Part shown: piece by piece, positions 2,726 to 23,536 of the stretch
Numbering within the stretch: the first letter of the stretch is position 1
Layout: each line of letters opens with the position of its first letter
Assembly: GCA_019856515.1 (NCBI GenBank)
Contig: CP082230.1
Span: 1,364,001-1,428,000, forward strand
Source: Prolixibacteraceae bacterium
Lineage (GTDB): Bacteria > Bacteroidota > Bacteroidia > Bacteroidales > Prolixibacteraceae
Direction of reading: 5' to 3'
Length of the DNA stretch: 64,000 nucleotides
Notes under the pieces: generated by a model
Databases searched by the model: none
What the model was told of the DNA's origin: nothing
What the model saw: only the letters and a program-made list of their open reading frames with translations
Program-made: the position numbers and the translations under genes

Positions 2726-2767
2726 GGTATAACATTTAAGTCACCGAGCTAAGAATCTAAGAAAAAC

Positions 2768-2840
2768 CTATCTCATGGAGATATAGTGTAGGAATAACCA
2801 ATATTTCCATCGTCTGTATGGTCCATGAGATAGCCTTTTG
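2768..2840 (+). terminator. Putative terminator after the ABM gene
   Basis: A 12-bp perfect inverted repeat, CTATCTCATGGA at 2768-2779 and TCCATGAGATAG at 2822-2833, is followed by CCTTTTGC. The loop is long (42 nt), so this could instead be a regulatory or repeat structure. Confidence 0.4.
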
Positions 2841-2961
2841 CTTATCTCCTTTTCAATTTACCCTTCCTCTCTTATATTGATCCCCTCCACCCAAGAGTAT
2901 TGGATCATAAATTAGCTTGACATCAAAGAGAAGAGCTCTTTAATGCCACCTACCCCTGAAT

Positions 2962-3172
2962 AACATACGACGAACCCCTGCCCTCTTTAGAATATCATTT
3001 GAACTACATTCGAAGTTTCCTCACCCAAAATGGGAAATCGATGAATGAAATTCGAATGAAATTCGAATGAAATTCGAATGAAATTCGAGTCGACTTCGAG
3101 TCATCGCAGGGCATAGGCAGGGGAAAGTAGCCTATTAGACAAGGCAAGGTGAACTAAAAAGAGTAAGATCGG
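2962..3172. repeat. Intergenic palindromic element with 11-nt direct repeats, copy 1
   Basis: The core at 3041-3088 repeats the 11-mer ATGAAATTCGA four times in tandem, then ends in GTCGACTTCGAGTC. It is flanked by CCCCTGCC (about 2975) and GGCAGGGG (about 3117), which pair as an inverted repeat. A second copy, with the shared block CTCACCCAAAA-x-GGGAAAT followed by CGATGAATGAA, lies at 47.78-47.96 kb with a different 11-mer and a different outer stem. The unit length is not a multiple of three and no reading frame spans it. Confidence 0.75.
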
Positions 3173-3273
3173 TTAACCATAAAACATGAATACATAATTT
3201 AATTTACACATCCTATTAAATATCCACACATACAATAAAAATGAGATCACCTGAAATATACCTGCTATTGGAT

Positions 3274-3450
3274 AGGGCTATGAAACGGTTTTCATACGGT
3301 ATTCAAACGGTGCTAGTCCATACTTGCCTCATACATAGCTCACACATCACTCATGTTTGGGGACAAAAACATGAGTGAACTCTGGACTAGTTTTGAGCTG
3401 ACTATAAACGAAGACCGTATTAAACCCGTTTAAAACCCGATTGATATCCC
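3274..3450. repeat. Large imperfect palindrome with 11-nt periodic arms
   Basis: The centre is ACTCATGTTT/AAACATGAGT (about 3350-3376). Further out, CTAGTCCA pairs with TGGACTAG. The outer arms each consist of 11-nt units: AAACGGTTTTC, ATACGGTATTC, AAACGGTGCTA on the left, and ACCGTATTAAA, CCCGTTTAAAA, CCCGATTGATA on the right. The whole could fold into a long cruciform or RNA hairpin. No coding frame is supported. Confidence 0.65.
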
Positions 3451-3856
3451 TATCATACTATAGTGACATCCCTGTCATCTCTCAATTAAACCGGAGGGAT
3501 TACCTTATAAAACTACTCTTTCCATGTATACTAATTTAAGAAAATTTAGACAGAGTTAATTTTACACCGTCACTATTCGTAACGATATCATTGCAAAATG
3601 GATATGCAGTTTGCAGTGACCGACGCAATCGGGTATCTCCGAAACTTATCAAAAATAATTTTTAATGTTCAAGAACTAAAAAAAACGATTGATATTTGCA
3701 TCCAACCTGTTCATACAAAGTGTAAATAAACCATGTCTGTCTACTTCTCAAAACCATAGCATCTCTTCATTAGGCATATCAGAAGGTAAGGAGCCAACCT
3801 TTAGCCTAAAGAAGTTCTCGTTCTAGCTATGATAGATGATAAGTATAGAAGTATAA

Positions 3857-3887
3857 GACTGTAGGGCTGACTTGCAGCCCTACAGTC
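3857..3887. repeat. Strong 12-bp hairpin in intergenic DNA
   Basis: GACTGTAGGGCT at 3857-3868 pairs perfectly with AGCCCTACAGTC at 3876-3887 across a 7-nt loop. No gene ends immediately before it and no T-run follows directly, so it looks more like one of this genome's dispersed hairpin cassettes than a terminator. Confidence 0.6.
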
Positions 3888-4153
3888 ATTTCACCTATCT
3901 CCAGCGATTCACACAAGGATACATAACTATAGTGCTTTCAGTACGAGTTATAATTATATAGGTTTGAAAAAATGACTTAACGCTTCTGTTCAATGAATAG
4001 TTTTTTATGAAGGTAGCTACAGACATATAAAAAATATCACTTGCCATTTTCTTCTTAAACATAAAATAAAGAGAATACTAAGCCTTCAACAATTGAAGGT
4101 TTAATTGTTTGCTTCATATGAGCAGACTTAACTTATACAATTCAAAATATTGA

Positions 4154-4909
4154 TTACAATCTATTCCATTTAAGACATGTTCTATAGAAATCATTAGTTG
4201 TTTCTTGTACCTCAATTGGTAGCAATGCAATCCAGTCTTCATATGAGAATGCTTTTATGATTGCTTGTTCAGCTCTTGAAATGAGATCATGATCGACTGG
4301 AATATTTGATATTTTATAACGCTCTATAATCTGCTTAACCATCCTGTCTTTATTGATCTGAGCTTCGATTTTGTAATGGTCTAATCTTTTTTGAGGTGCA
4401 ACAACGGCAAAGAAAGTTTTACAATATTTATTGTTTGCATTTTTCAAGACACATGCAAAGTTTCGACTTGCTTGATTATAATCAGGAGCATGTGTTGTTT
4501 TTTGACTTAAGTTGCTTTTGAGTTTTGCTTCAATAATTCCAAAAACCTTTGCATCATCATTTACAATTATCTCTCCACGCTCTCCATAATTTATGCTAAA
4601 ATCACCAAGAGCCATATCCGCATGCGTATACCCTTCTCTTTTTACATCCACCTTAATAAATGGACTTGAAATAAGACCTTCTGATGTCCAACTATTTATC
4701 TCTGAAAAATCAATTAAGCCGTCAATTACAACATTATATTTCTTTGATTGATATACTAATAGTCTTATCAACCAACCTTCGTTATAAACCTCTGTTGGAT
4801 TGACAAAAGGAACTACACGACTTGTCATTGAGTCATCAATGGATTCTAGTATTTGTTCAAAAAAATTCAAAAACGCCATACTAATATATTTATTGATTAT
4901 GAAATTCAT
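4154..4909 (-). CDS. PD-(D/E)XK nuclease-like protein
   Basis: 251 residues from the ATG at 4909. An alternative ATG at 4879 gives MAFLNFFEQILESI and is at least as plausible. I do not recognise a named family. The middle has the arrangement expected of a restriction-type nuclease core: an acidic residue in ADMALGDFSI, a strand-like spacer, then GIIEAKLKS (the E-x-K half of PD-(D/E)XK). The surrounding text (IIVNDDAKVFGIIEAK, FFAVVAPQKRLDHYKIE) fits alternating strands and helices. The gene is AT-rich and lies about 1.1 kb from McrBC, so a defence role is possible. It lacks an adjacent methylase. Function is inferred from the motif only. Confidence 0.6.
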   Translation of the reverse strand: MNFIINKYISMAFLNFFEQILESIDDSMTSRVVPFVNPTEVYNEGWLIRLLVYQSKKYNVVIDGLIDFSEINSWTSEGLISSPFIKVDVKREGYTHADMALGDFSINYGERGEIIVNDDAKVFGIIEAKLKSNLSQKTTHAPDYNQASRNFACVLKNANNKYCKTFFAVVAPQKRLDHYKIEAQINKDRMVKQIIERYKISNIPVDHDLISRAEQAIIKAFSYEDWIALLPIEVQETTNDFYRTCLKWNRL

Positions 4910-5284
4910 TTATATAAGTAGAAATCAACTCAGATCGTTAAATTCGTTGGATAAGAATTATACCGATAAGAATGAAACATACAATAATAATCAATTTTAA
5001 ATTATGATCAATGTAACACATTCTTCATTACAGCCTTAAAGAATAAAATTAACATTACAAAACACATGACATGGAAGTAATCCGTACTAACTGTGAACGA
5101 ATACAGTAAGAAAAATTATAATAAAGACTGTCTTCCGCAACAACAAAGCCCTAAATGTTCTAGACACAATAGCCTAGACATATACTGAATTGCTACTTTT
5201 GAATGAATTTGTGATAATTGGATCTACAGCCTAGATCTGTATTTTCATTAATACCCATCGCTTTTCACGGGGCTATTAATTGTA

Positions 5285-5297
5285 GCACTTTCAGTGC
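5285..5297. repeat. GCACTTTCAGTGC mini-hairpin
   Basis: A 5-bp stem (GCACT/AGTGC) with loop TTC, in the context TGTAGCACTTTCAGTGCATC. The same 13-mer recurs at 18119-18131, and a variant (GTGCTTTCAGTAC) occurs near 3945. Confidence 0.6.
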
Positions 5298-5326
5298 ATC
5301 GTTGTTGCATTATTAAACATTTATTT

Positions 5327-5505
5327 GGGTCAGGCCTTCAGCCTTTGATTGTGTGGTGGGTTTGTTTTCCCAAGGCTTCAACCAATACCTTGACCTTCGG
5401 TCAAATTATGGTTTTCACCATTGGGCTAAGTTCGGTTTCCCTTTCAGGGAAGGTTGCAAAATTAAAAGATCCGTGGAAATCCGTCTCATCCGTTGAATCC
5501 GTGGC
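5327..5505 (+). repeat. Repeat array A, unit 1 (hairpin-rich dispersed repeat)
   Basis: The unit begins GGGTCAGGCCTTCAGCC and ends ATCCGTTGAATCCGTGGC. Inside are two mini-hairpins, TTGACC-TTC-GGTCAA at 5390-5404 and TTTCCCT-TTC-AGGGAAG near 5440. Reading frames through it on both strands are artefacts of the repeat. It is followed by about 70 bp containing the palindromic GAGCTGGAGCTC before unit 2. Confidence 0.85.
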
Positions 5506-5576
5506 GATTATTACATTTAAGCATTAGTGTGATACATGATGCCGAGCTGGAGCTCAGCTTTCCCAGTTGTTCCTCT

Positions 5577-5748
5577 GGGTCAGGCCTTTGGTTGTAAGGA
5601 GATTTTTTTTCCAAGGCTTCAACCAATACCTTGACCTTCGGTCAAATTATGATTTTCACCATTGGGCTAAGTTCGGTTTCCCTTTCAGGGAAGGTTGCAA
5701 AATAAAAAAAATCGGTGGAAATCCGTCTCATCCGTTGAATCTGTGGCT
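5577..5748 (+). repeat. Repeat array A, unit 2
   Basis: A second direct copy starts 250 bp after unit 1, with the same internal hairpins and the same ATCCGTTGAAT-CTGTGGC end. A decaying tail to about 5945 repeats phrases of the type ATCTGTTTCATCTGTGT. Confidence 0.85.
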
Positions 5749-6081
5749 GTATTTTCCTTGCACCACAGCCATAATAAAGATCCGTGCTCATTAGTACTAT
5801 CTGTTTCATCTGTGTATTATCCCCTGCACTTGAACATGTTACATGACACCTAACTAGGGCTCAGCATTCGCAATTCTGTCTTCGTGGTTCCATTTGAATC
5901 TGTGTTCATCAGTGCCATCTGTTTCATCTGTGTGCTATTTCCTGCGCTTCTTCCCTTGGTATTACTTTTTAATCTGTAAGGTTAAGGGGTAATATAGAAT
6001 CCATCTATGTGTATAATTTTATATCTTCATCTTGGATTCACATTTGAATAAATGGGTCTATTTTATCAAAAGAGAAGCAGG

Positions 6082-7776
6082 ATGAATAAACAGCAATATT
6101 TTGTTTGTAGCGTTGGGAGCAATCATGAAGGCTATACAGAAGAAAATCTAGATCGTATGATTGAGCACGGCGCCTTTGTATTTCATGAAGACACCACCCA
6201 GCGAGGACATTACAGGGAGATTCAAGATGGTGATATTTTGATTCTGAAGTATAATAATCAGTTTATTGCTTATGGAGAAAAGTGTTCTCGAGAGGTAGCG
6301 ATAAATGGAGAGGATGGATGGAACCAAATTTTTCCGATTAGGGAGTGGATATTCCACGATGATGCATCACCACGCAAAGGGGTTTCCCATAAAGGGTTAC
6401 AGGATAACACACTCAAAGGAGCAGGTCAAATGGGAACGGTTAAGATGATTAAACCATCTTTTGGTTATAAGTCGATCGAATCCATACACTCAGAAAACGA
6501 ACTATTTGAAAGAATGAAAGAGCTACATCAAAATAATTTATCATCAAATGACATTTCAGTACTGAAGAAGAAGAGACAGATTATCTTGCAAGGTCCTCCT
6601 GGCACAGGTAAGACCTATTCTGCCAAAGATATAGCTGAAGAGATGATATTCGGGGAGGTGTCGGAAGATAAAAGAGAACAGAAAAAGCGTTTGGAGACCT
6701 CGGAGCAGTTTCAATTAACACAGTTCCACCCATCTTATTCTTATGAAGATTTTGTGAGAGGTATTGAAGCGTCATCGGGGAAAGATGGTATACAATATAA
6801 TACCAAGAATCGTATTCTTGCTGACTTTGCAGACAAAGCACTAAAGAACGTACAGTTGGCGACATTAGAGAAGGAGACGTTTTCGAAAGAGCAACACGTT
6901 TATGAGCTCCTTACGCAATTTGCGGACCAAGTGCAAGAGAAGATCGATAATGACGGTCGTTATCCTATTACCGATTCTGTATATATCTCGGAGGTGAGTG
7001 ATAAAGGGTTTCGCTATACGGGAGATAATTGGGGCAATGCACCAAGAATAAAGTTCGAGGATTTGGTGCAGATAGAACTTCTGCAAGCCCATACAAGGCA
7101 AGCCATTAAACATGCCGACGGGCTATCGGGACTTGCAGACCATCATGCGACCTATTTTAATAATTTATCGAAGAAATTCAGAGATGCATTTCCATCGGAA
7201 CTGAATAATATGCCCTCCACGCATAAAGAGCAACCTACGGTAAAAAACTTTGTGTTGATTATTGATGAGATTAACAGGGCCAATTTGCCATCGGTCATGG
7301 GAGAACTGATTTATGCATTAGAGTATCGAGGCGAAGCGGTGGAGAGCATGTATGCTGTGGACGGAGATCGTAGGATTATCATTCCAGATAATTTATATAT
7401 CATTGGTACGATGAACACCGCAGACCGAAGTGTAGGGCATATTGACTATGCTATTCGACGTCGTTTTGCGTTTATTGATATGTTGCCAAATGAGAAGGTG
7501 ATTACTGAAGGAGAGGCAAGTGAATTGTTTCATCGTGTAAGCGAACTTTTTGTTACGGAAGAGGGAGATAAAAAAGAGAATGCGAAATACCTTGCTCCTG
7601 ATTTCGATTATAAAGAGATACAGTTAGGACATAGTTATTTTATGGCTGAAACGACTTCGGATCTGAAGATGAAGTTGGAGTATGAGATCAAACCGATCTT
7701 AAGAGAGTATGTGAAAGATGGTATTCTTCAACCTAGTGCCACTGAAATTATCGAAGCGTTAGATGTCCATGCATAA
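6082..7776 (+). CDS. mcrB: McrB-like AAA+ GTPase subunit of a modification-dependent restriction system
   Basis: 564 residues from the ATG at 6082, which is preceded by AGCAGG. An upstream in-frame ATG at 6052 would add ten residues. The N-terminal 130 residues (VCSVGSNHEGY, GDILILKYNNQFIAYG) look like a PUA/EVE-type base-recognition domain. The C-terminal part is an McrB motor: Walker A GPPGTGKT at 171-178, Walker B IIDEINRANLPSVMGEL with the DEINRA signature near 395-400, and the McrB hallmark GTMNTADRS at about 443-451, followed by DYAIRRRF. It would bind modified DNA and translocate with GTP. The stop overlaps mcrC by 14 bp, indicating translational coupling. It is flanked by repeat array A. 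Confidence 0.93.
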   Translation: MNKQQYFVCSVGSNHEGYTEENLDRMIEHGAFVFHEDTTQRGHYREIQDGDILILKYNNQFIAYGEKCSREVAINGEDGWNQIFPIREWIFHDDASPRKGVSHKGLQDNTLKGAGQMGTVKMIKPSFGYKSIESIHSENELFERMKELHQNNLSSNDISVLKKKRQIILQGPPGTGKTYSAKDIAEEMIFGEVSEDKREQKKRLETSEQFQLTQFHPSYSYEDFVRGIEASSGKDGIQYNTKNRILADFADKALKNVQLATLEKETFSKEQHVYELLTQFADQVQEKIDNDGRYPITDSVYISEVSDKGFRYTGDNWGNAPRIKFEDLVQIELLQAHTRQAIKHADGLSGLADHHATYFNNLSKKFRDAFPSELNNMPSTHKEQPTVKNFVLIIDEINRANLPSVMGELIYALEYRGEAVESMYAVDGDRRIIIPDNLYIIGTMNTADRSVGHIDYAIRRRFAFIDMLPNEKVITEGEASELFHRVSELFVTEEGDKKENAKYLAPDFDYKEIQLGHSYFMAETTSDLKMKLEYEIKPILREYVKDGILQPSATEIIEALDVHA

Positions 7777-9064
7777 TAAGATTATATCCTGTTCGGAGCA
7801 TGACTCCTTAGAGATAGCCTACCTCATAGAAGAAGAGACTCCCGATTTTTCTTATGGGGATCGATGTGTGCTTTTTCCAAAGACACATAGAGGAAAAGAC
7901 GCTTCGTTATCATGCTTTTCTACCCAATATGAGGATAAAAGTTACCAGCTCAAGACCTCATATTTTATTGGTGTAGATTGGTTATATCAGGAGAGAAAGG
8001 AGGCCATTCAGGTTCACCCCAAAATCAATGATGAGGAGGGTGAAGTGGATTATTTAGGTATTATCTTTAACTCTCTCTCTTTTCCGGATGCACATCATGC
8101 CGTGGAGGAGCTGTTTTGGGTAAAGTGGGATGAGACACCTATCGAAATATCTCAGAAAGAGGATCTACTGACCCCACTACTTATCGTGGAGTACTTATCG
8201 ATATTGCGAGAGATTGTACGCAAAGGATTGAAGAAATCATACTATCGTGTAGAGAAGAATCTCCATAGTCGTATTAAAGGGAAAGTGCAGGTGGGGGCTA
8301 CCATCAAACGCAATATAATGCGCCAACGTCCTCTTCATACCCAGTGTTGCTATGAAGCATTTGGGGTAAATAATATGGAAAATCGCCTGCTAAAAAAAGC
8401 GTTTCTTTTTGCTCAAAGATATCTTTCGCAGTATATCGAGATGGGACAACATAAACAACTTCTGTCGACGATCCATTACATCTCTCCTGCCCTGACGGAT
8501 GTTTCGGATGATGTTTCGTTACACGAATTGAAACATCAGAAGAGCAATAAGTTTTTTAAGGAGTATGAGAGGGGATTGAAACTGGCACATTTTATCTTAA
8601 AGCGGTTTGGCTACAATATACAGGAAACCACACCGTCTAGTATAAAGGTCACCACTCCCCCATTTTGGATTGATATGAGTAAAGTGTTTGAACTACATGT
8701 CCTCAACTTATTGCGCGCCACTCTTAAGGAAGATGTGAAATTTCAATTCCAAGCGGGACAACTCTCTATCGACTATTTGATCCACACAGAAGGATTTCAA
8801 ATAGTGGTGGATGCCAAATATAAACCACGCTATAGGGAACAATCTATTCATATCGACGATATACGTCAAGTGAGTGGTTATGCCCGCATGGAGAAGTTAT
8901 ATCGTACTTTCGCTATTGAAGATTCATCTCTTATTGACTGCCTGATTATCTATCCCGATCAAGAAAATGGTTTGGAGCACATTGCTCTTGATGATCTAAA
9001 AAAGCATGAACTAAAAAGTTATCGTGGAATATATAAGTTGGGGGTAAAGATGCCGAAGATATAA
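7763..9064 (+). CDS. mcrC: McrC-like nuclease subunit
   Basis: 433 residues, starting inside the end of mcrB. The N-terminal half matches the McrC beta-rich adaptor region (YGDRCVLFPKTHRG, SYFIGVDWLYQER) that stimulates McrB. The middle contains the McrC-type stretch RIKGKVQVG, and NNMENRLLKKAF. The C-terminus is the PD-(D/E)XK nuclease: Asp337 in LSIDYLI, Asp350-Ala-Lys352 in VVDAKYKPR, then DDIRQVSGYARM. With McrB it should cut DNA carrying modified bases, such as phage hydroxymethyl- or methylcytosine DNA. Length and motif order are normal, so the pair looks intact. A hairpin follows the stop. Confidence 0.92.
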   Translation: MSMHNKIISCSEHDSLEIAYLIEEETPDFSYGDRCVLFPKTHRGKDASLSCFSTQYEDKSYQLKTSYFIGVDWLYQERKEAIQVHPKINDEEGEVDYLGIIFNSLSFPDAHHAVEELFWVKWDETPIEISQKEDLLTPLLIVEYLSILREIVRKGLKKSYYRVEKNLHSRIKGKVQVGATIKRNIMRQRPLHTQCCYEAFGVNNMENRLLKKAFLFAQRYLSQYIEMGQHKQLLSTIHYISPALTDVSDDVSLHELKHQKSNKFFKEYERGLKLAHFILKRFGYNIQETTPSSIKVTTPPFWIDMSKVFELHVLNLLRATLKEDVKFQFQAGQLSIDYLIHTEGFQIVVDAKYKPRYREQSIHIDDIRQVSGYARMEKLYRTFAIEDSSLIDCLIIYPDQENGLEHIALDDLKKHELKSYRGIYKLGVKMPKI

Positions 9065-9073
9065 TTGACATCT

Positions 9074-9118
9074 AAGGCAACAACAAAATGTCATATATCG
9101 ATATTTTGTTGTTGACTT
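9074..9118 (+). terminator. Inverted repeat behind mcrC
   Basis: CAACAACAAAAT at 9078-9089 pairs with ATTTTGTTGTTG at 9103-9114, and the pairing extends with single mismatches to 9074-9118. It lies 10 bp past the mcrC stop and probably ends that operon, although it is AT-rich and lacks a downstream T-tract. Confidence 0.5.
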
Positions 9119-9882
9119 AAATACCACGAATGTCAATTCTATGCGATATTGATGTCTTCCCATTTTTCTTTAAACTCGCTTAAACTAGAAACGTCTTACT
9201 TTTCAAGAACAATGAATATCATGATCAAGGGTTATTCGAGAAACATAACACATTGATTGTAGAATAAGTTGGACATGCCCCATTCATTGATATTGATTGA
9301 TGAAAAGGAGGTAAAATAAAACGAAGACAAGATTCCAGATAACTGAACTCGACTAATACAACAATCAATATCCTTCTGTAAACAAACACATCGATTTTCG
9401 TGGTTACGTACCATAATACGATGAATTTAACTCATGCTTTATATGGCCACAGATTCTCAAAATACAGATCAAAAAAAGCGTCATTACAAAGGCTAAATCA
9501 TGCTTACGTCCTGAGTTACTTCTTGTATCATTAAGATTTATTTGTAGGTAGTTGTAAAATAGTCTAATTTTGTTAGATGAAACGTCGCTATTCATAATTT
9601 ATATCTGTTTTTCGCAATCCAAATATAATATGAATTCACGTTTTATGAACAAGCCCTGAGTATTATTATATTTGAATGTTTTATACTAAAGGCAAATGAA
9701 TAGGATAAAAGAAATATCAATGGAAAATAAATAAAACTGACATGACTAGGTGGCTACCTAAGTAAAGAGCTATAATCTTATTAAAGGGTATGTTCAAAGT
9801 AGACAACACCCCAGATTGGAAGTATTGTTTAAGGTTTCGAAAATACTTAATGTTAATATAATGGATCTAAAACAGGTTGAAG
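9119..9882. other. Gene-free spacer between the two defence operons
   Basis: About 760 bp with no credible gene; the short frames on the minus strand have no domain signal. A TATATTTG box at 9667-9674 could be a Bacteroidota -7 element, but no TTG was found at the right distance and the gene start is 210 bp away. Confidence 0.5.
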
Positions 9883-11979
9883 ATGAATAAATCTGATGCA
9901 TTAAACTTATTGAGGAATTCTATTGATAATGATACAGCAGAGTTCCGAGAAGGACAATGGCAAGCTATTGATGGAATCGTTAATAGGAAAAAGAAATTAC
10001 TTGTAATAGAACGTACAGGCTGGGGAAAAAGCTCAGTATATTTTATTAGTACAAGAATTCTTAGAGATGAAGGTAAGGGTACAACTATTATTATCTCACC
10101 TCTACTTGCATTAATGAGAAATCAAATTGAAGCTGCTGAAAGATTAGGTATAAAAGCAATTTCAATTAACTCAACAAATGTTGAAGATTGGAACATATCC
10201 AAATTAGCAGTTCTTAGGAATGAAGTTGATGCATTACTAATTTCTCCGGAAAGGCTTGCAAATGAAAATTTCATGAATAACATTTTAAGACCAATAGCGG
10301 ATAGAATTGGTTTATTTGTTGTTGATGAAGCACATTGTATTTCAGACTGGGGGCATGATTTTAGACCTGATTATAGAAGAATAGTAAATATTCTTAAGTT
10401 CATGCCAACTGGTATGCCAATCCTTGGAACAACGGCCACTGCTAATGATAGAGTGTGTAAAGATATAGTTTCGCAGCTCGGAGATATAGAGGTAATCAGA
10501 GGAGCTTTAACTAGAGAAAGTTTGATTCTTCAAAATATATCACTTAAAGATCAAGCTGCTAGATTAGCTTGGTTGAAAGAGAATATTCCTAATTTAACAG
10601 GAAGTGGTATTGTTTATACACTCACCAAAAGAGATGCAATGATTGTCACAGATTGGTTGAATGAATGCGATATAGATGCTGCTTATTATTATGCTGGAGC
10701 TAAGGATAATAACTTTGAAGACTCTACACAGTATCGACAGTATGTAGAAGACTCATTATATAACAACGAATTGAAGGTTCTTGTGTCCACTTCAGCATTG
10801 GGTATGGGCTATGACAAACCAGATTTAGGCTTTGTTATACATTATCAAGCTCCAAGCTCAATAATAAGCTACTATCAACAAGTAGGAAGGGCGGGAAGGG
10901 CTATCAGTAAAGCGCATGGTGTTCTATTATCAGGTCGAGAAGATCACGATATACATCAGTACTTCAGACAATCAGCCTTTCCTCCAAAAGAAAGAGTAGA
11001 GGCTATATTAGCTATCATTGAAGAACACGATGGTTTATCTGTTCCAGAGCTAATGAAGCAACTAAACTTAAGAAAGGGTCAGATAGAACAAGTATTGAAA
11101 TATCTAATCGTAGAAGAATCTTCTCCTGTTATAAAGATTGGTACTAAGTGGTATAGAACAGCTGTAGAGTATGATATGGATTCTGATAAGGTGTTAAGAT
11201 TAACGAACCAAAGACTTAATGAATGGCATGAAATGTTGACGTATATTGATTCAACTGATTGCTTGATGAATTTCCTGCAAAACTCTCTTGATGATCCAAA
11301 TAGAACTCTTTGTGGAAAATGTGCGAATTGTGACCAAAAGCTTAAATTATCAGATACGGTACAACATGAAAATGGAGTGGAAGCTGCTTTGTTTCTGAAA
11401 CATTCAGAATTTGATTTTAAATTAAAAATAAAAATTGAATCTGAGGCATTGCCTGAATATGGATTTAGTGGTAATCTTCATCAAAGCCTCCGTGCAGAAT
11501 TGGGTAAATCTTTATCAAGATGGGGAGATGCTGGCTGGGGTAGTATAGTTGCAGAAGACAAGCATAATAATTTTTTTCGAGATGAATTGGTTGATGCATT
11601 TGTTGAAATGTATAATGAAAGATGGAATACAACTCCTCGTCCAACATGGGTCACCTGCATTCCTTCACATAGGCACCCAGACTTAGTTCCTTCCTTTGCT
11701 GAACGAGTAGCAACGAAGTTGGGCTTACCCTTTGTGTCAGTAATAGAAAAAATAGAGGAAACTGCTCCTCAAAAAGAACAGGAAAATAACTTTTTCCAAT
11801 GTAAAAACCTTGATGGAGCATTTAAAGTCAACGGTAGTATTAAAGTTGGTCAACCTGTGTTACTAATAGATGATGCAATTGATTCGGGATGGACACTAAC
11901 AATTGCATCGGCTTTACTTAGGCAGGCAGGCTGTGGTATTGTTTTTCCTGCAACTTTAACTTCAACATCAGCAAATTAA
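9883..11979 (+). CDS. RecQ-family DNA helicase fused to a phosphoribosyltransferase domain
   Basis: 698 residues from the ATG at 9883; a TTG at 9877 is in frame but less likely. The N-terminal two thirds are a complete RecQ core: motif 0 FREGQWQAI (21-29), Walker A TGWGKS (45-50, W where RecQ usually has G), DEAHCISDWGHDFRPDY (from 148), TTATAN, and QQVGRAGRA (332-340). A RecQ zinc site follows with Cys460, 477, 480 and 483. In place of an HRDC domain, the last 160 residues form a type I PRTase, with PSHRHPDLVPSFAERVA and the PRPP loop VLLIDDAIDSGWTL at 659-672, similar to ComFC. The dprA-like gene starts 4 bp later, so the two act together. A housekeeping RecQ role is unlikely given the fusion and the setting. 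Confidence 0.9.
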   Translation: MNKSDALNLLRNSIDNDTAEFREGQWQAIDGIVNRKKKLLVIERTGWGKSSVYFISTRILRDEGKGTTIIISPLLALMRNQIEAAERLGIKAISINSTNVEDWNISKLAVLRNEVDALLISPERLANENFMNNILRPIADRIGLFVVDEAHCISDWGHDFRPDYRRIVNILKFMPTGMPILGTTATANDRVCKDIVSQLGDIEVIRGALTRESLILQNISLKDQAARLAWLKENIPNLTGSGIVYTLTKRDAMIVTDWLNECDIDAAYYYAGAKDNNFEDSTQYRQYVEDSLYNNELKVLVSTSALGMGYDKPDLGFVIHYQAPSSIISYYQQVGRAGRAISKAHGVLLSGREDHDIHQYFRQSAFPPKERVEAILAIIEEHDGLSVPELMKQLNLRKGQIEQVLKYLIVEESSPVIKIGTKWYRTAVEYDMDSDKVLRLTNQRLNEWHEMLTYIDSTDCLMNFLQNSLDDPNRTLCGKCANCDQKLKLSDTVQHENGVEAALFLKHSEFDFKLKIKIESEALPEYGFSGNLHQSLRAELGKSLSRWGDAGWGSIVAEDKHNNFFRDELVDAFVEMYNERWNTTPRPTWVTCIPSHRHPDLVPSFAERVATKLGLPFVSVIEKIEETAPQKEQENNFFQCKNLDGAFKVNGSIKVGQPVLLIDDAIDSGWTLTIASALLRQAGCGIVFPATLTSTSAN

Positions 11980-11983
11980 GATT

Positions 11984-13231
11984 ATGATTTCAGAAAGAAC
12001 AAAATCAATATTACTATTTACATCATACTTTGCAAAAAGTTCGGATAAAAGCATAAAGCCGCTGACCAACACTGAGTGGAATAGGTTAGTTAGATGGTTG
12101 CAATCAAAATCAATAAGCCCAGAGGATTTCTTATCTCAAGATAATGCTAGTTTATTACTTGGTTGGCAGGATAAAACAATTACATCAGAAAGGATTGACT
12201 CTCTGCTAGAAAGAAAATCTGCATTAGCAATAGCTTTGGATAAATGGACTAAAGCAGGAATTTGGATTATTAATAGAGGTGATAAACAATATCCCAGGAG
12301 ATTAAAAGAAAGATTGAAGGATAATGCCCCGCCGATATTATTTGGAATAGGGAATGCTGATTTATTAAATAAGCAATATATTGGAATTGTTGGAGCAAGA
12401 AAAACTACAGACAATGAATTGTTTGAAACAAAGAAGATAGGCAAGAAAATAACTTCCGAAAACTTTGGAATTGTTTCTGGTGGAGCTAAAGGAGTAGATG
12501 AGTCTGCTATGCTCGGCGCTCTTGAAGCAAATGGAAATTGTATTGGTTTTGTATCGGATTCATTAATTAGGAAGTCAACAACCAGTACGTTTAGAAAATA
12601 TATAATCAATAAAAGGCTTGTTCTTCTATCTCCATTTAACCCTGAAGCAAGTTTTAACGTAGGGAATGCAATGACTAGAAATAAATTGATATATACACAG
12701 TCAGAAGCTACGATAGTTGTAAAATCAGACACAAAAGGAGGAACATGGGAAGGTGCCAAAGAAAATTTAAAAAAACAATGGGTTCCTCTTTGGGTTATTT
12801 ACAACAAAGAGGTTGGCAACAATGAGTTAATAAAATTGGGTGCTAATAAATTACTTCCTGAAAATGAATACAAAATAGAAGAATTGGTAAAAGTAAAAAT
12901 AATTCAGGTTTCTGAGCCTAATTTATTTTCTTCTAATAATTCTCTAGCCAATAACATAGCACAAGAAAAGAAGGTGATAAAGAAGGAGGGTGATATTATT
13001 GAAGTTAAATTAAATGATGCAACATTATTTGATTATTTTATCTTCAAACTTTATAGTATCATAACTGATAAACCATTGACTAAAAAAGATATCAAGGATA
13101 AATTATCCATAACCAATAGCCAATTAGATGAATGGTTGAAAATGGCTTGTGCTAAGGAATTTATTATAAAAAATAATAGGCCAGTGACTTTCATTTTAAA
13201 TAAGGAAAAGAAAATTAGAATTACGAGTTAG
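11984..13231 (+). CDS. DprA/Smf-like Rossmann protein with C-terminal winged-helix extension
   Basis: 415 residues. The DprA core is clear: YPRRLKERLKDNAPPILFG, GIVGARKTT at 134-142, SGGAKGVDESAMLGALEA from 165, and RNKLIYTQSEATIVVKS. True DprA loads RecA on incoming single strands during transformation. This one has about 60 extra N-terminal residues and a C-terminal segment (PLTKKDIKDKLSITNSQL) resembling a winged helix. It follows the RecQ-PRTase gene after 4 bp and has no competence neighbours. DprA-domain proteins paired with PRTases are known from ShosTA-type toxin-antitoxin defence, where the DprA protein is the antitoxin. A similar control role is inferred here. The gene is visibly AT-richer than mcrBC. 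Confidence 0.88.
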   Translation: MISERTKSILLFTSYFAKSSDKSIKPLTNTEWNRLVRWLQSKSISPEDFLSQDNASLLLGWQDKTITSERIDSLLERKSALAIALDKWTKAGIWIINRGDKQYPRRLKERLKDNAPPILFGIGNADLLNKQYIGIVGARKTTDNELFETKKIGKKITSENFGIVSGGAKGVDESAMLGALEANGNCIGFVSDSLIRKSTTSTFRKYIINKRLVLLSPFNPEASFNVGNAMTRNKLIYTQSEATIVVKSDTKGGTWEGAKENLKKQWVPLWVIYNKEVGNNELIKLGANKLLPENEYKIEELVKVKIIQVSEPNLFSSNNSLANNIAQEKKVIKKEGDIIEVKLNDATLFDYFIFKLYSIITDKPLTKKDIKDKLSITNSQLDEWLKMACAKEFIIKNNRPVTFILNKEKKIRITS

Positions 13232-13887
13232 TTTAATAAGACAATTTTCTACAATTTAAGAAAAACACCAGGCTGATTAATATCAACAGATAGTTTTTTT
13301 GAGCTTGTGCGGCCTATTCCATTAACGTACTGGCATTCAATCCTAATTTCCGTCATGGAGGTGTTAATACTTGCATATCTAAACGAATCGTCTCATTCGT
13401 AATTCTAGCATGTTTTTTGTGACTTTAATAATTCGTATGGACAAGTATTTTGCGAACCGATTTGAATAGCTACACTTTTAAATTGGGATTAAATAACATA
13501 TATCAGGAGGCTATGTATCCATCTTCATCTTGGCAAATAATTGTGAGAGTATAACTAGCCAAAGAAAATCTCATAATTTCATTCTAAGGGCATTTATTTA
13601 ATTTAAAACAACTTCGGGGCCATATGACACCATATCAAGACAAAGGAGGTGTTATATAGCCTCAAATGGATGTAATGTAATAAAGAAAAGGATTAGGATA
13701 ATAATTGCAAGCGTAATGTATGCGGCATAACTACTTTTGGGGTTGGAAGTTGAGTTTGAGACTGATTGTGTAATCATATCGTTTTGCTAAAACAGGCAAT
13801 ACGTCAATGGTCAGTTATATTGAAGTTGAAAATCAGATGAAAGTGAGAGAGGTTTTAATTGGTGAAGCCTTATGATTTCATATTTGG

Positions 13888-14066
13888 GGGTCAGGACTTC
13901 AGCCTTTGGTTGTGTGGTGGGTTTGTTTTCCCAAGACTCATTCCTATACCGCGCTATCGCGCAATTTAGGCATTTCACCATTGGGCTAAGTTCAGTTTCC
14001 CTTTCAGGGAAAGTTGCAAAATAAAAAAGATCCATAGAAATCCGTTTGATCCGTTGAATCCGTGGC
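13888..14066 (+). repeat. Repeat array B, unit 1
   Basis: Homologous to array A units and in the same orientation, from GGGTCAGGACTTCAGCC to TTGAATCCGTGGC. At the place where other units have TTGACC-TTC-GGTCAA this copy has GCGCTATCGCGC (13951-13962), a different sequence that still forms a hairpin. The second hairpin TTTCCCT-TTC-AGGGAAA is kept. Confidence 0.85.
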
Positions 14067-14138
14067 GATTATTCCATTTAAGCATTAGTGTGATACATGA
14101 TGCCGAGCTGGAGCTCAGCGTTCCCAGTTGTTTCTTTG

Positions 14139-14319
14139 GGGTCAGGCCTTCAGTCTTTGATTGTGTGGTGGGTTTGTTTTCCCAAGGCTTTAACCAATAC
14201 CTTGACCTTACGGTCAAATTATGGTTTTCACCATTGGGCTAAGTTCGGTTTCCCTTTTAGAGAAGGCTGCAAAATAAAAAAGATCCGTGGAAATCCATCT
14301 GATCCGTTGAATCCGTGGC
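14139..14319 (+). repeat. Repeat array B, unit 2
   Basis: Starts 251 bp after unit 1. The first hairpin is TTGACC-TTAC-GGTCAA at 14202-14217, with a 4-nt loop instead of 3. The second hairpin has decayed to TTTCCCTTTTAGAGAAGG. The unit ends GATCCGTTGAATCCGTGGC. Confidence 0.85.
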
Positions 14320-14455
14320 TGTATTTTCCTTGCACCACAGCCCTAATAAAGATCCGTGCTCATCAGTACTATCTGTTTCATCAGTGTGCCATCCCTTGCA
14401 CTTCAATACGTTCCATGATATCGAGCTGGAGCTAGCGTTCCCAGTTGTTCCTTTG

Positions 14456-14615
14456 GGGCAGGCCTTCAGCCTTTGGTTGTAAAGAGATTTGTTTTCCCAA
14501 GGTTTTAACCAATACCTTGACCTTACGGTCAAATTATGGTTTTCACCATTGGGCTAAGTTCGGTTTCCCTTTCAGGGAAGGTTGCAAAATAAAAAAGATC
14601 CGTGGAAATCCGTGG
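14456..14615 (+). repeat. Repeat array B, unit 3 and tail
   Basis: A third copy, 317 bp after unit 2, with the TTGACC-TTAC-GGTCAA hairpin and an intact TTTCCCT-TTC-AGGGAAG hairpin. A degenerate tail runs to about 14790 and includes another GATCCGTTGAATCTGTGGC phrase near 14764. Confidence 0.8.
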
Positions 14616-14923
14616 ATATTTTAGACGCGAACATCGCGCCTTTACGTGGCTCCATTTCCTAGATCTTATTGGACTTTGAGTGCATCTTTGTTGCAATAAG
14701 ACAAATGTCCAATCCGTGTCCATATTTTCTTCGTGCCTTAGTGATATTTTTTTATCAGTATAGATCCGTTGAATCTGTGGCTGTGTTCTTTTATAAGTAG
14801 ACACAGCGTGAACAGAAATTATACAGTCTATATACTAGTCAAAGGACAAGTAGTAAAATGAAATATTTCATTAATATTATTTTTTATATATTTACACAAA
14901 CAACTAAAAACCAATCTTATAAT

Positions 14924-15586
14924 ATGAAGAGACTATGCTTTATCCTTTCAATCTCAGTTGCCTTTTTCACTAACTCCATTGTATCGGTAGCGCAATCAAA
15001 AAGTAATTTTGTAGTCAAAGCTGGGGCCAATATAAATTATTTTGATGCAAATTTTAAACAAAGAAGTAATCTAGGTTATCATTTGGGAGGACTATTCTCA
15101 TTTAATCTTAACTCTTTTAGAATACAATCTGGTTTGATTTATATTAAAAGAGGGACCAGAACGTTATTACAAGAGGTTATGTATACAGTAGAAAATCATG
15201 AAATTATTGATGAGAGAATAGTTCATGAAGACTACGATAGTCGCATGGTGGTAAACTACATTGAAATTCCCCTTAACCTTAGCTTAAAGGTTGTCGGCTT
15301 CCGCAATAATAATAACGAAGTCAGGCTTCATGTTGAACCAGCTTTAGGAGTATATATTTCGGACCAGATTAAAAGAGGAAATGACAAGAGGGTATTTTTA
15401 CTTAACCACGAAGAGCCAAATTATTATGAAGAGCTAAATATCGGAATAAAGTTTGGGGCAAGTTTTAAGGTTGGTCAGTTTGAGCCTTATGCAGGTTATG
15501 ATATTGGAATTAATGATATCGCAGCCAATCATTATGAAATAAGAAACAGAAGTGTTTATCTTGGTTTAGGCTACTACATACACTAA
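14924..15586 (+). CDS. PorT-like outer-membrane beta-barrel protein
   Basis: I place the start at the ATG at 14924, because this gives a clean signal peptide (MKRLCFILSISVAFFTNS..VSVAQ); the frame opens at 14858 with 22 non-signal residues. The 220-residue product shows the Bacteroidota 'outer membrane protein beta-barrel domain' pattern: FVVKAGANINYF, LGYHLGGLFSFN, FRIQSGLIYIKRGT, VVNYIEIPLNLSLKV, LHVEPALGVYISDQI and KFGASFKVGQFEPYAGYDIG. It presumably forms an 8- to 10-strand barrel in the outer membrane. The next gene is a paralogue. Ligand or partner unknown. Confidence 0.82.
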   Translation: MKRLCFILSISVAFFTNSIVSVAQSKSNFVVKAGANINYFDANFKQRSNLGYHLGGLFSFNLNSFRIQSGLIYIKRGTRTLLQEVMYTVENHEIIDERIVHEDYDSRMVVNYIEIPLNLSLKVVGFRNNNNEVRLHVEPALGVYISDQIKRGNDKRVFLLNHEEPNYYEELNIGIKFGASFKVGQFEPYAGYDIGINDIAANHYEIRNRSVYLGLGYYIH

Positions 15587-15604
15587 ATTCGAAAGACATG
15601 ACTC

Positions 15605-15645
15605 TTTAACTATCACACATTTATTTAAAATATGTGATAGTTAAA
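15605..15645 (+). terminator. Hairpin behind the first barrel gene
   Basis: TTTAACTATCACA at 15605-15617 pairs with (T)GTGATAGTTAAA ending at 15645. It lies 19 bp past the stop. It is AT-rich, so a weak terminator or mRNA-end stabiliser is likely. Confidence 0.5.
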
Positions 15646-15699
15646 ATAAGAACACAAAGTCTGCAAGAGTTAAAAATTATGGGGCTACGAATTGGATGG

Positions 15700-15840
15700 A
15701 ATTCATCAGTGTAAAGAAGAAAATCATATGTGACAAAGGTTATGCAGCCACGGATATAACTATCACAAACAATAATCGATATAGGTCTCTATGATCCATT
15801 GAATTCATGGCAATAAATTCTTTCACCTAGGCTAAACTTG
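15700..15840. repeat. Decayed remnant of the island-flanking repeat
   Basis: GATCCATTGAATTCATGGC near 15793 corresponds to GATCCGTTGAATCCGTGGC of the array units with scattered substitutions. No full unit remains. Confidence 0.4.
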
Positions 15841-15861
15841 CTGGCAATCTTAACGAATACA

Positions 15862-15914
15862 ATATAAATTGTAATAAATCATTTATGGCTTTCTGGATTT
15901 ATTACAATTTATAT
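15862..15914. promoter_or_regulatory. Perfect 19-bp inverted repeat upstream of the second barrel gene
   Basis: ATATAAATTGTAATAAATC at 15862-15880 is the exact reverse complement of 15896-15914, with a 15-nt loop. It ends 35 bp before the start codon at 15950. It could be an operator for a dimeric regulator, a 5'-leader hairpin, or the terminator of an earlier transcript. Confidence 0.55.
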
Positions 15915-15949
15915 ATTTTAACATTATCAATTTTAATTTACCTTATTCC

Positions 15950-16606
15950 ATGAGAAAAATAAGCATTATTCTTACATTAGTGTTCATATTGGCAACGCTC
16001 CAATGCTTGAAAGCACAAGAAACCAATGGATTCAGCCTCCGAGCAGGACTACACATAAACGAGCTTAACAAGGATTACGTAAACCCTACGTTAGGTTTAT
16101 CTGTTGGAGCTTTTTACTCTTTTCATCTAGATAACCTTAGAGTCCAACCTGGAGTTGCATTTACGCAAAGAGGGGGGAAATTAAAAACGACAGTGTCCTA
16201 TGGTCCTCCAGGTTACTCTTCTAATAGTAATGCCCCTGATATGACGACAACTTACGATGATTTTGTAGCATTGAATTATATTGAGATCCCCATTAACTTT
16301 AGTTTGAAAATCATAAGTCTTAAGAAAAGTAATAATATTAGAGTATCTATTGAGCCTACTTTAGGGTATTGTATCTCTGGTAAGGTGGAAGATCTAGGAC
16401 AAGCCTATGACGTAAAGGTCACATCGGATGTCGAAAATATAAACGATATAAAACCGTTAAATTTTGGCGTTAAATTTGGGGCAAGTCTGAAACTGAATCA
16501 TTTTGAACCTTATATTGGCTACGATGTAGGAGTAAGTAATATCAAAACCACTAAAAATGAATGGAAAAATCGTGCTTTTTGTGTCGGTTTATCTTATTAT
16601 TTGTAA
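15950..16606 (+). CDS. PorT-like outer-membrane beta-barrel protein (paralogue)
   Basis: 218 residues with signal peptide MRKISIILTLVFILATLQC..KAQ. It aligns by eye with the preceding gene: FSLRAGLHINEL, LGLSVGAFYSFHLDNLRVQPGVAFTQRGG, ALNYIEIPINFSLKI, VSIEPTLGYCISG, and KFGASLKLNHFEPYIGYDVG. The order of strands and the conserved YIEIP turn show a duplication. The two genes are separated by 363 bp with a hairpin and an inverted repeat, so they are probably transcribed separately. Confidence 0.82.
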   Translation: MRKISIILTLVFILATLQCLKAQETNGFSLRAGLHINELNKDYVNPTLGLSVGAFYSFHLDNLRVQPGVAFTQRGGKLKTTVSYGPPGYSSNSNAPDMTTTYDDFVALNYIEIPINFSLKIISLKKSNNIRVSIEPTLGYCISGKVEDLGQAYDVKVTSDVENINDIKPLNFGVKFGASLKLNHFEPYIGYDVGVSNIKTTKNEWKNRAFCVGLSYYL

Positions 16607-17050
16607 AACATTGGCAAACAACTCATAAAAATTGAAGCGCAAGAGTAAAAGAACCACTAAGACACAACGAAACTAAGGGTTGGGACACAAGCATGAAATA
16701 CGGATGAGACGGATTGGACGGATCAGACAGATTAAAAATTTACTATTTCACCACAATATGGAAGTTGGGATGTGGTGGGTTGGTGTGAGATATGGAAATG
16801 TTTGTCATTGGAAGAGTTCTAATTTTATAGGAGGATGATCAGGGTTTGGGGTTTGTGTCGATATAAAGGCATCATCCTATGGTTCAGTTTTTTGCTTTCA
16901 TTTTATAAGACATCAATACTTAAAACGCACCTAAGTTATGGTCTTAGGCAGGGACAAAAATAGGATTAAGGTTTACAGAATAGATCAAAATTAATTATCT
17001 TGCGGTTTCAGCATCTATTTAACAACATTTTTATTGTAACGATCACACCG
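16607..17050. other. Spacer with repeat relic
   Basis: No gene is seen. At about 16700 the phrase GAGACGGATTGGACGGATC looks like a fragment of the array repeats in the opposite orientation. The rest is unremarkable. Confidence 0.45.
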
Positions 17051-18028
17051 ATGAAAAGATCTACTGTATTCTTTTTTATCCTTTCTCTTTATGTTTTCTC
17101 AACCTCGATGGTAGTGGGGCAAGCTGTGGTGAAACAAAGTGTGATAAAAAAGGCGTATAGTTCGGTTACAACAAAGAAGTATAAGGCACTCGAACGCTTT
17201 GGCAAGATGGAGCGAGCCCAATTAATTGGTCAATATGCCTTGAAGTATCGTTTTGATAGTAAGGGAGACACCATTGAGTCTAGCAGATATCAGATGAAGC
17301 CAGATGCAAAGCAAGGAGATATTGACACGATTGCAATTGTACGCTACAATGATCGTGGACAGAAGATTGAGGAGAATACTTTTACCAACAAAGGTGCCTA
17401 TGGTCGTTATGATTATTTTTATCATGAGAACGGGACATTAAAATTGGTAAATCAATACGATCAAACGGGCAAGAAGGTTAATCGGTCGGACTATTATTAT
17501 GATGGGCAAAGACGATTGATTCGCATGCTTCGAAGAGGCTTTAAGGGAGATACTCTTAGATATGATCAGTATCAATATTTTCAATCCGGGACTTATATTC
17601 AAAAGGCGAAGTTATATAAGGAAGATGCAGGCAAAGAGGTGACTTACTCTTTTGATAAGGCACAGCGTGTTTTTGAGAAGAAATATTACTTTAAGAAGGC
17701 ATTAATTAAGAGTGTTTTTCTCTCCTACGACTTGGAAGGTCATTTGATTTCACAGAATATAAAGAAGAAAGACAAGCCTACTATTCATATCCGTTATCAG
17801 TATGATGATCATGGGATGTTGATATATCAAAGAGAGTTAGATACCTCCACTAAAAAAGCAGAGGTGAAAAGATTTCAATATTTCTATGATAAAACAGACC
17901 GTTGGGTACATCGATATGTCGCGATAGAAAAGATAGAAGGGTTCTTTAGCGAAGGTTATATTGAGGATCGAGAATATCATGAGGATGGTACTGGAGATAA
18001 GACTGTTTTCCCTGTGTCATACCATTAA
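17051..18028 (+). CDS. Exported YD-repeat-like protein
   Basis: 325 residues from the ATG at 17051, which gives a standard signal peptide (MKRSTVFFFILSLYVFSTS..VVGQ). A TTG-initiated extension to 17000 is unlikely. The body is built from roughly 20-residue strand pairs with a Y-D/G-x-x-G-R core: VRYNDRGQKIEENTF, YFYHENGTLKLVNQYDQTGK, YYYDGQRRLIRMLRRG, YSFDKAQRVFEKKYYFK, YDLEGHLISQNIKK and YQYDDHGMLIYQREL. These are RHS/YD-like repeats without a toxin tip, suggesting a periplasmic or surface protein. It resembles the lipoprotein at 1.4-2.2 kb. Role unknown. Confidence 0.75.
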   Translation: MKRSTVFFFILSLYVFSTSMVVGQAVVKQSVIKKAYSSVTTKKYKALERFGKMERAQLIGQYALKYRFDSKGDTIESSRYQMKPDAKQGDIDTIAIVRYNDRGQKIEENTFTNKGAYGRYDYFYHENGTLKLVNQYDQTGKKVNRSDYYYDGQRRLIRMLRRGFKGDTLRYDQYQYFQSGTYIQKAKLYKEDAGKEVTYSFDKAQRVFEKKYYFKKALIKSVFLSYDLEGHLISQNIKKKDKPTIHIRYQYDDHGMLIYQRELDTSTKKAEVKRFQYFYDKTDRWVHRYVAIEKIEGFFSEGYIEDREYHEDGTGDKTVFPVSYH

Positions 18029-18445
18029 TACCAAATAAAAAGGAGCAGACTTACAACCCTTGGAGATTGGTGAGTGATCGACGACACCTAGACTTAAAAG
18101 CCTAGACTAAGAAGTTTAGCACTTTCAGTGCATTGATGTCGAAAAGAGATATGGGCCGATTTATGAACACACTGACTAAGATAAAAGATGCATCATTATT
18201 TAGGTATGATTATACTTAGTTTTGAGAGAATCAAACATATATAATAGTGTATTCGGCACCTGATGAATTGGAGTCTTTGAGATAATCCGATATGCTAAAA
18301 ACATCGAAAAGATGTTTTCCAACAATTCTATTGAGAGATATGATAAAGTTCACTTTTAGTTGAACAGAACTCACTACCTTTATGGTGGAAAAGGGAGATA
18401 TACCCATTTTTTGTAAAGAAAGAAACTCAAAAATATAGACCTACA
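18029..18445. other. Spacer with a GCACTTTCAGTGC mini-hairpin
   Basis: No gene is seen. The 13-mer GCACTTTCAGTGC occurs at 18119-18131, preceded by CCTAGACTTAAAAGCCTAGAC. The 100 bp before gcvT contain no confident promoter match. Confidence 0.5.
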
Positions 18446-19531
18446 ATGAAAACAACTGCTCTAAATAAGGTGCACCGAGACTTGGGTGCTAAAATGGTAG
18501 AGTTTGCTGGATATGATATGCCGATAGAGTATAGTGGCATTCAAGGCGAACACATGAAAGTAAGAGAAAGTATCGGGGTATTTGATGTATCTCATATGGG
18601 GGAAATTTACGTAGAGGGACCAAAATGTTTGGAGTTCCTACAGATGATGACTTCGAATGATGTTTCGGTTCTAGAGCACGGACAGGCACAGTACTGCTAT
18701 TTTCCAAATGGTAAAAGAGGTATTGTAGATGATCTGATCGTCTACTGTATGGAGAAAGAGAAGTGTTATCTTTTGGTCGTTAATGCTTCAAATATTGAGA
18801 AGGATTACCAGTGGTTGGTAGACCATCAAATAGAAGGCATTACATTGAATAATGTTTCAGATGAGATCTCACAATTGGCAGTTCAAGGACCAAAAGCGCT
18901 GGAGGTACTACAAAGTCTTACAGAAGTGACTCTTAAAGATATTCCATTTTATCAATTTGTTGTTGGAGAGATGGCAGGTATTAAGGATGTGATTATCTCC
19001 AATACTGGCTACACTGGATCAGGTGGTTTTGAACTCTATTGTGCCAACAAAGATGTGGAAGCACTGTGGAAAGCGGTTTTTGAAGCTGGAGAAGCGGAAG
19101 GAATTGCCCCTATTGGATTGGCAGCAAGAGACACCCTAAGAATGGAAAAAGGATACTGTTTATATGGTAACGATATTGACGATGCCACTTCTCCTTTGGA
19201 GGCAGGGCTGGGATGGACAACCAAGTTTGTTGATAATAAACCGTTTATTGATCGTCCATTTTTAGAGCAACAAAAGGCAGATGGTGTTACCAAGAGGTTA
19301 AGAGGATTTATTCTTCAAGAGAGAGGTATCCCAAGACATGGATATGAAATATGTACGGAAGCCGGTGAGACGATTGGTGTTGTGACTTCAGGAACACAAT
19401 CACCAATTTTGAAACAAGGTATTGGATTAGGTTATATTGATCTCAATCACTGTAAGTTTGGTAATACCGTTTATATTAAGATTCGCAAGAAATTGATCCC
19501 AGCACTGATCAAAAAGTTGCCATTAATATAA
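18446..19531 (+). CDS. gcvT: Aminomethyltransferase, T-protein of the glycine cleavage system
   Basis: 361 residues, the normal GcvT length. It shows family landmarks in order: the N-terminal [87 protein letters not shown] and [10 protein letters not shown]. It transfers the methylene of the lipoamide-bound aminomethyl group to tetrahydrofolate, releasing ammonia. The H and P proteins are not in the window. It stands directly before serC and serA, so this stretch handles serine, glycine and one-carbon flow. Confidence 0.97.
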
Positions 19532-19555
19532 CACTTGTCCATAAAAAAGGACATT

Positions 19556-19590
19556 GCACCATCTCTATGTCACGAATATGGTGCTATTTT
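19556..19590 (+). terminator. Hairpin behind gcvT
   Basis: GCACCAT at 19556-19562 pairs with ATGGTGC at 19578-19584, followed by TATTTTG. Probable weak terminator. Confidence 0.45.
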
Positions 19591-19695
19591 GATCCAATGT
19601 TAAGTTTTGTATAGTTTTTCAAGTAGAAAACTTATGATTTATGTCATACCATAGGATCTTATTTAAAAAAATAATATATTGACAAAATATAGCTT

Positions 19696-19722
19696 ATAAG
19701 CCGAATCGATTTATCGGCTTAT
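19696..19722 (+). promoter_or_regulatory. Hairpin in the serC leader
   Basis: ATAAGCCGA at 19696-19704 pairs with TCGGCTTAT at 19714-19722 across a 9-nt loop, 38 bp before the serC start. It could be a leader hairpin or an end signal for gcvT transcripts. Confidence 0.4.
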
Positions 19723-19760
19723 TATTCGAGATAATAACAATTTTAATGACCCAAATCGCT

Positions 19761-20834: not shown

Positions 20835-20862
20835 TAGCGTGTCGTAATGTAACAAGACGAAG

Positions 20863-23512: not shown

Positions 23513-23536
23513 GCATTGCCGATAAACATAGTTGTG

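Follow-up and report, generated by a model that had tools for sequence, protein, structure and literature searches.

Helicases of the RecQ type that are fused to a phosphoribosyltransferase (PRTase) domain and encoded next to a DprA-like protein are already known under two names, PsyrTA and RqlHI, and here we analyse such a gene pair at positions 9883..13231 of a 64,000-nucleotide stretch of Prolixibacteraceae bacterium DNA (contig CP082230.1, positions 1,364,001 to 1,428,000; hereafter the window). PsyrTA of Pseudomonas syringae is attributed to Sberro 2013 (PMC8790059), and PsyrT and PsyrA are named as orthologs of RqlH and RqlI, proteins of 698 and 400 amino acids (aa) from extraintestinal Escherichia coli (Russell & Mulvey 2015, PMC4670107). 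According to that study, RqlH is toxic without RqlI, acting as a PRTase-dependent genotoxin that the DprA-like RqlI restrains, and its phenotypes in E. coli include SOS and DNA damage. Mutants of the RqlH PRTase pocket are reported there to be non-toxic, with D663A removing most effects; co-precipitation of RqlI with RqlH requires the PRTase, and the helicase domain is described as restraining the PRTase together with RqlI. PsyrTA has been cited as a defence system (Millman 2022, in PMC10121019), and one paper terms it an abortive-infection toxin-antitoxin system.

ShosTA resembles these systems in that it pairs a PRTase with a DprA-like antitoxin. It is presumably the DprA and PRTase pair for which protection against phages has been reported, and to our knowledge ShosT has no helicase, which sets it apart from PsyrT. 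That DprA and PRTase pair was described as protective against T7 and lambda (PMC9122126), and a review describes ShosT as both a phosphoribosyl transferase and a pyrophosphatase, with purine metabolism upset by its action and T7 Gp0.7 as its trigger (PMC12593503, citing Pu 2025).

Results

The first gene of the window pair, psyrT (rqlH; 9883..11979, + strand), encodes a RecQ-like helicase with a C-terminal PRTase, the predicted toxin, of 698 aa when read from the ATG at 9883, from which residues are counted here; an alternative TTG start at 9877 would give 700 aa, two residues more. It is followed after 4 bp on the same strand by psyrA (rqlI; 11984..13231, +), which encodes a DprA-like protein of 415 aa, the predicted antitoxin. 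The PADLOC model for PsyrT (PDLC03928) matched the first protein with 988.8 bits across residues 1-699 of the 700-residue query and positions 1-686 of 689 in the model, and the PsyrA model (PDLC03927) matched the second with 457.7 bits across residues 2-404 and model positions 3-395 of 398, scores far beyond chance. The models for the housekeeping proteins stayed below their cut-offs, with 269.8 bits against 640.2 for PsyrT on the recQ equivalog TIGR01389 and 96.5 bits against 191.15 for PsyrA on the dprA equivalog TIGR00732. The pair thus has the helicase-PRTase fusion of about 690-700 aa and the same-strand DprA-like gene directly downstream that mark PsyrTA and RqlHI, and in a tree of PsyrT relatives it falls inside the clade of paired loci and outside the unpaired actinobacterial clade. 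On these sequence grounds we assign it to the named family PsyrTA (= RqlHI), for which genetics have been published, and regard ShosTA as a relative in kind only.

The window pair shares with PsyrTA of P. syringae the same two near-full-length proteins and the toxin-first order, and differs from it in having a Bacteroidota host and an adjoining McrBC, as well as in being read here from sequence only. For comparison with RqlHI we used the chromosomal pair of E. coli Ecol_732, a strain other than Russell and Mulvey's F11. Its toxin has 698 aa and is 55% identical to the window PsyrT (696 aligned positions, a single gap), its DprA-like partner is 41% identical to PsyrA over 330 aligned positions, and the gene order is shared; these sizes and identities fit the RqlH and RqlI described in PMC4670107. 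The Ecol_732 pair sits between gntU and yhgN with its annotated frames overlapping, whereas the window pair lies in an island and has a 4-bp gap instead of an overlap.

The preliminary description of this locus, made by a model from the sequence, had read the first gene as a RecQ helicase with Walker A, DEAH and QxxGRxGR motifs and four zinc cysteines, ending in a PRTase domain with an intact phosphoribosyl pyrophosphate (PRPP) loop where an HRDC domain would be expected, with a DprA-like gene 4 bp behind it, and all of these parts could be located. The helicase core (9940..10962, +; residues about 20-360) matched the Pfam families DEAD (85.1 bits) and Helicase_C (51.0 bits) and carries the Walker A motif TGWGKS (K49), DEAH at 148-151 and QQVGRAGR at 332-339. 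It is followed by a four-cysteine zinc site read from the sequence (11260..11331, +; Cys 460, 477, 480 and 483), whose family was matched by 17 of 31 aligned PsyrT members, and by a match to the PRTase family PF00156 (11695..11943, +; residues 605-687), which was found at E<=0.001 in 20 of the 31. Within the latter lies the intact PRPP-binding loop LLIDDAIDSGWTLT (11857..11901, +; residues about 659-673). No HRDC family appeared among the Pfam matches of PsyrT at E<=0.01, and none of the best 60 of 99 matching solved chains in the PDB covered its PRTase part. Across a 37-row alignment K49, D148, G335-R339 and D663 do not vary, and at least 90% of the rows share D664. It is D664 that aligns with D663 of E. 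coli RqlH, K49 and D148 are identical in the two proteins, and all of the residues mutated in RqlH have intact counterparts in the window. The DprA/SLOG Rossmann domain of PsyrA (12245..12850, +; residues 88-289) matched PF02481 with 137.5 bits.

The pair is neither the only recQ and dprA of its genome nor a fixed core locus, two circumstances that the preliminary description had named as fatal to its reading. Elsewhere the genome encodes four more RecQ-like proteins with strong matches (E of 5.7e-39 or lower), as well as a second DprA (228 bits). At E<=1e-100 PsyrT was found in one of 140 family genomes, the window's own, and in none of the 139 others, which include three congeners; at E<=1e-150 it was present in 32 of 395 genomes of a phylum sample, the window's own counted. 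In congener G076 a stretch corresponding to approximately 2856..14858 of the window is missing from the same site, as judged by flank matching. On the left, window 1621-2855 corresponds to 14920-16142 of the G076 locus (L023); on the right, window 15227-15574 corresponds to 16908-17255 at the protein level with 38% identity, and further out window 16967-18037 corresponds to 17868-18939. Therefore, about 12 kb with both genes in the window stand against 766 bp or less in G076, which is 77% complete and is the sole congener to show the site without the island, the left flank being unmatched upstream of the island in G074 and G075. The psyrTA pair is accessory and lies in an acquired island, and a core repair locus was rejected on the strength of this accessory status and of the other RecQ-like and DprA genes.

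The placement beside McrBC within a repeat-bounded island, also part of the preliminary description, holds as well. Besides psyrTA the island contains mcrBC and an open reading frame (ORF) at 4154-4909, and mcrBC and psyrTA are enclosed by two copies of a composite direct repeat (left copy 5318..5950, right copy 13879..14611), with about 86% identity between the copies across 568 aligned columns. The genome contains 112 matches to this repeat family, which form clusters in some regions (for instance at 4.67-4.69 Mb), and with such dispersal the repeats alone are no proof of a mobile element. The neighbouring system, a separate one spanning 6052-9064, comprises an AAA protein (6052..7776, +; AAA_5, 51.2 bits), which we call McrB-like because its gene overlaps mcrC, and an McrC-like protein (7763..9064, +; PF10117, 98.9 bits). 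The setting had also been called AT-richer, as psyrTA is. Overall GC is 0.357 in psyrT and 0.315 in psyrA, and GC at third codon positions (GC3) is 0.23 and 0.25, compared with 0.30-0.35 in seven genes from the region 18446 to 29031 and 0.28-0.38 in other flanking genes, a spread that makes the AT-richness modest evidence. The GC3 of mcrBC is higher, at 0.39-0.42, and the difference in composition suggests that mcrBC and psyrTA may have arrived separately. An inverted repeat with 23-nt arms, 87% complementary, lies at 9070-9122 just past mcrC, and psyrT is preceded by an 818-bp gap, so that the two may also be separate transcription units. The ORF at 4154-4909 (- strand; 251 aa) matched nothing in Pfam or in PADLOC at E<=0.01; it has 143 relatives, and most of the 120 listed are unnamed or hypothetical, with one (P0017) named 'Restriction endonuclease' by its source. 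Elsewhere within the island, 11-bp tandem units GAATGAAATTC occur at window 3043-3097.

To see how widely RecQ-PRTase and DprA genes occur together, a survey the preliminary description had proposed, we took the best 80 of at least 586 loci from a scan of the genome collection and called a locus paired when a same-strand PsyrA match lay no more than 5 kb downstream of PsyrT. By this measure 36 of the 80 were paired, including 34 of the first 36, although the partner match at L038 is a 25-residue piece at a contig end. The 44 unpaired loci come mostly from Actinomycetota and otherwise from groups such as the haloarchaea and Chloroflexota, in agreement with the statement in PMC4670107 that rqlH stands mostly alone in Gram-positive bacteria; four of them (L071, L085, L088 and L093) have less than 1 kb of sequence downstream and a partner may have been missed. 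In the phylum sample, PsyrA accompanied PsyrT at 27 of the 29 loci retrieved; the closest relative there (L111), from the same class, is 66% identical in PsyrT and 50% in PsyrA. Close relatives are thus mostly paired, and some stand beside defence genes, as described below.

In the PsyrT tree, built by a quick method from 81 rows with support from the Shimodaira-Hasegawa-like approximate likelihood ratio test only and with some long branches, the paired label changes 7 times, against a mean of 27 after shuffling. The window protein and 13 paired rows, drawn from several phyla, form a supported set within which the nearest relative of the window protein is not fixed; this grouping points to horizontal spread. 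Some relatives are plasmid-borne. Among phage records 28 matched PsyrT, none of them across more than 80% of the query, which suggests only partial, RecQ-like similarity in phages. In E. coli AVS0935 (row H41) and in L110 the toxin gene is apparently broken by an insertion sequence or annotated as frameshifted, with the annotated DprA partner adjoining.

The preliminary description had taken the setting to favour a defence function, and the survey lends support to this, since some close relatives lie beside or inside restriction, Hma and BREX operons. The nearest neighbours of the paired loci (63 proteins from 34 loci, the other two of the 36 having no neighbour ORF) matched 243 PADLOC families at E<=1e-10, whereas those of the 44 unpaired loci (81 proteins, both sides) matched a single family, through one protein with E 3.9e-19, a contrast that is suggestive only. 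In keeping with this, the unpaired, mainly actinobacterial relatives showed no such restriction, Hma or BREX settings in their 44 loci. Immediately downstream of paired loci, where 30 of 31 nearest proteins were scanned (that of L069 was omitted) at E<=1e-30 or 1e-20, nine of the 30 gave strong and specific PADLOC matches, namely three HmaC, two type I restriction proteins, HamA, a type IIG enzyme, PglZ and SoFic. Left out of this count were L036 (SspA/DndA-like, 113 bits) and L063 (UvrD-like, generic), with which it would be 11 of 30.

In several cases the pair is placed inside another system. For example, psyrTA lies between HmaB and HmaC in L030, L032 and L039, between hsdM-hsdS and hsdR in L011, L033 and L035, and between pglX and pglZ in L026 and L061, where a short ORF on the opposite strand separates pglX from psyrT in L061. 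For two plasmids, L011 of E. coli (type I) and L026 of Acinetobacter (BREX-1), nesting was read from the annotation; for L033 and L035 the type I M subunit upstream was called by PADLOC, S by its similarity to the annotated S of L011, and R was called downstream. This amounts to six of the 36 paired loci plus two of five plasmid regions examined, L030 and L032 being near-copies and L033 and L035 sister rows in the PsyrT tree. We found no report of psyrTA nesting in modification operons in the open-licence literature that was searched.

Discussion

The aggregate data make it probable, in our judgement, that the window pair is a PsyrTA (RqlHI) toxin-antitoxin module in an accessory island whose restraint, once upset, leads to abortive infection. 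PsyrT would be a RecQ-type helicase, working 3'-5' by analogy with RqlH of Mycobacterium smegmatis, whose C-terminal PRTase domain would be required for toxicity. PsyrA would bind the PRTase part, and PsyrA and the helicase would together hold it in check until phage replication or DNA damage disrupts that restraint. The freed PRTase would then act on nucleotide or PRPP pools or on DNA-associated bases, and the resulting DNA damage would arrest the infected cell. Toxicity, neutralisation and the binding of PsyrA to PsyrT are carried over here from the published relatives and may be expected of the window pair on that analogy, with which the preliminary description's scheme of a toxin restrained by a DprA protein also appears to agree; the trigger, the substrate and an anti-phage role in this organism are conjectural. 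The idea in the preliminary description that the helicase senses is likewise conjecture; in E. coli the helicase domain of RqlH is reported to act with RqlI in restraining the PRTase. A chemistry like that of ShosT is plausible for PsyrT by the same kind of comparison.

Several observations weigh against this interpretation. The isolated PRTase domain of RqlH is reported not to be toxic, and RqlH helicase mutants are still harmful (PMC4670107), so that the division of roles is not simple. The infectivity of 10 phages was no higher on E. coli NILS69 once PsyrTA had been deleted, and the cloned NILS69 system caused a growth defect in K-12 and gave no detectable protection there against 15 phages (PMC12409345). 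A metagenome survey describes PsyrTA as under-represented in defence islands overall, even as it reports the system co-localised with other systems within such islands (PMC10924106). In our own survey, 21 of the 30 downstream neighbours were without a strong specific defence match, two of these having generic matches, and the paired and unpaired sets differ in phylum, a taxonomic confounding of the contrast between their neighbours. Finally, two domain matches in PsyrT are sub-threshold, RecQ_Zn_bind at 20.1 bits against a cut-off of 25 and PF00156 at 26.0 bits against 26.3, the latter 0.3 bits short.

The NILS69 results would suit a selfish addiction module, in which the sole effect of PsyrTA is to stabilise its own island or mobile DNA, with no phage protection by the pair itself, and so would the toxin-antitoxin behaviour of relatives and their occurrence on plasmids. 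Yet several relatives are placed beside or inside defence operons, and a large helicase with conserved catalytic residues would seem a costly means of addiction; we hold this alternative to be unlikely, if one to be kept in mind. A role in DNA repair or uptake, with the helicase and the DprA-like protein processing single-stranded DNA ends and toxicity arising as a by-product of imbalance, would account for the RecQ, DprA and ComFC-like parts and for the E. coli phenotypes of SOS and DNA damage, and a ComFC PRTase-type domain is reported to work in DNA uptake (PMC9005727). Such a role sits poorly with the patchy, accessory distribution of the pair in the family and the phylum sample and with a genome that has a better DprA of its own and other RecQ-like genes, and we judge it quite improbable. 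That the pair is itself a ShosTA system we consider hardly credible, since PsyrA does match ShosA models (101 and 53 bits) and the solved ShosA chain 9vzo (E 4.4e-12), but the PsyrA and PsyrT models score far higher, at 458 and 989 bits, and no ShosT model was among the best 25 of 38 PADLOC matches of the first gene.

The preliminary description's comparison with ShosTA was accordingly sound as to the PRTase and DprA composition and the toxin-and-restrainer kind, and mistaken as to the family, with ShosA a distant second to PsyrA in PADLOC. The PRTase built onto a helicase is no novelty on the ShosTA theme, this kind of system being already described; what is new is this copy, intact and acquired.

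The recurrent nesting is the one lead that goes beyond assignment to a known family. From its placement between the modification and effector genes of three systems, PsyrTA could be set off when the host system is inhibited or damaged by a phage, and we put forward, with low confidence, that it may guard DNA-modification-based defences, in the window McrBC, as a helicase-PRTase counterpart of PrrC. The comparison is by analogy only, PrrC being a protein unrelated to PsyrT. The prrC gene is embedded in the EcoprrI type I restriction operon (PMC3874165), as psyrTA is embedded in type I operons in L011, L033 and L035; in the window, by contrast, psyrTA lies beside mcrBC and not inside it. If the guard idea were true, a nucleotide-enzyme toxin would be linked to the failure of modification-based defence, as PrrC links a tRNA nuclease to it. 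With the candidate novel system corrected to the named PsyrTA, effort can go to the questions about this family that merit it, namely what the PRTase acts on, what triggers the pair, and the reason for its location inside restriction, Hma and BREX operons.

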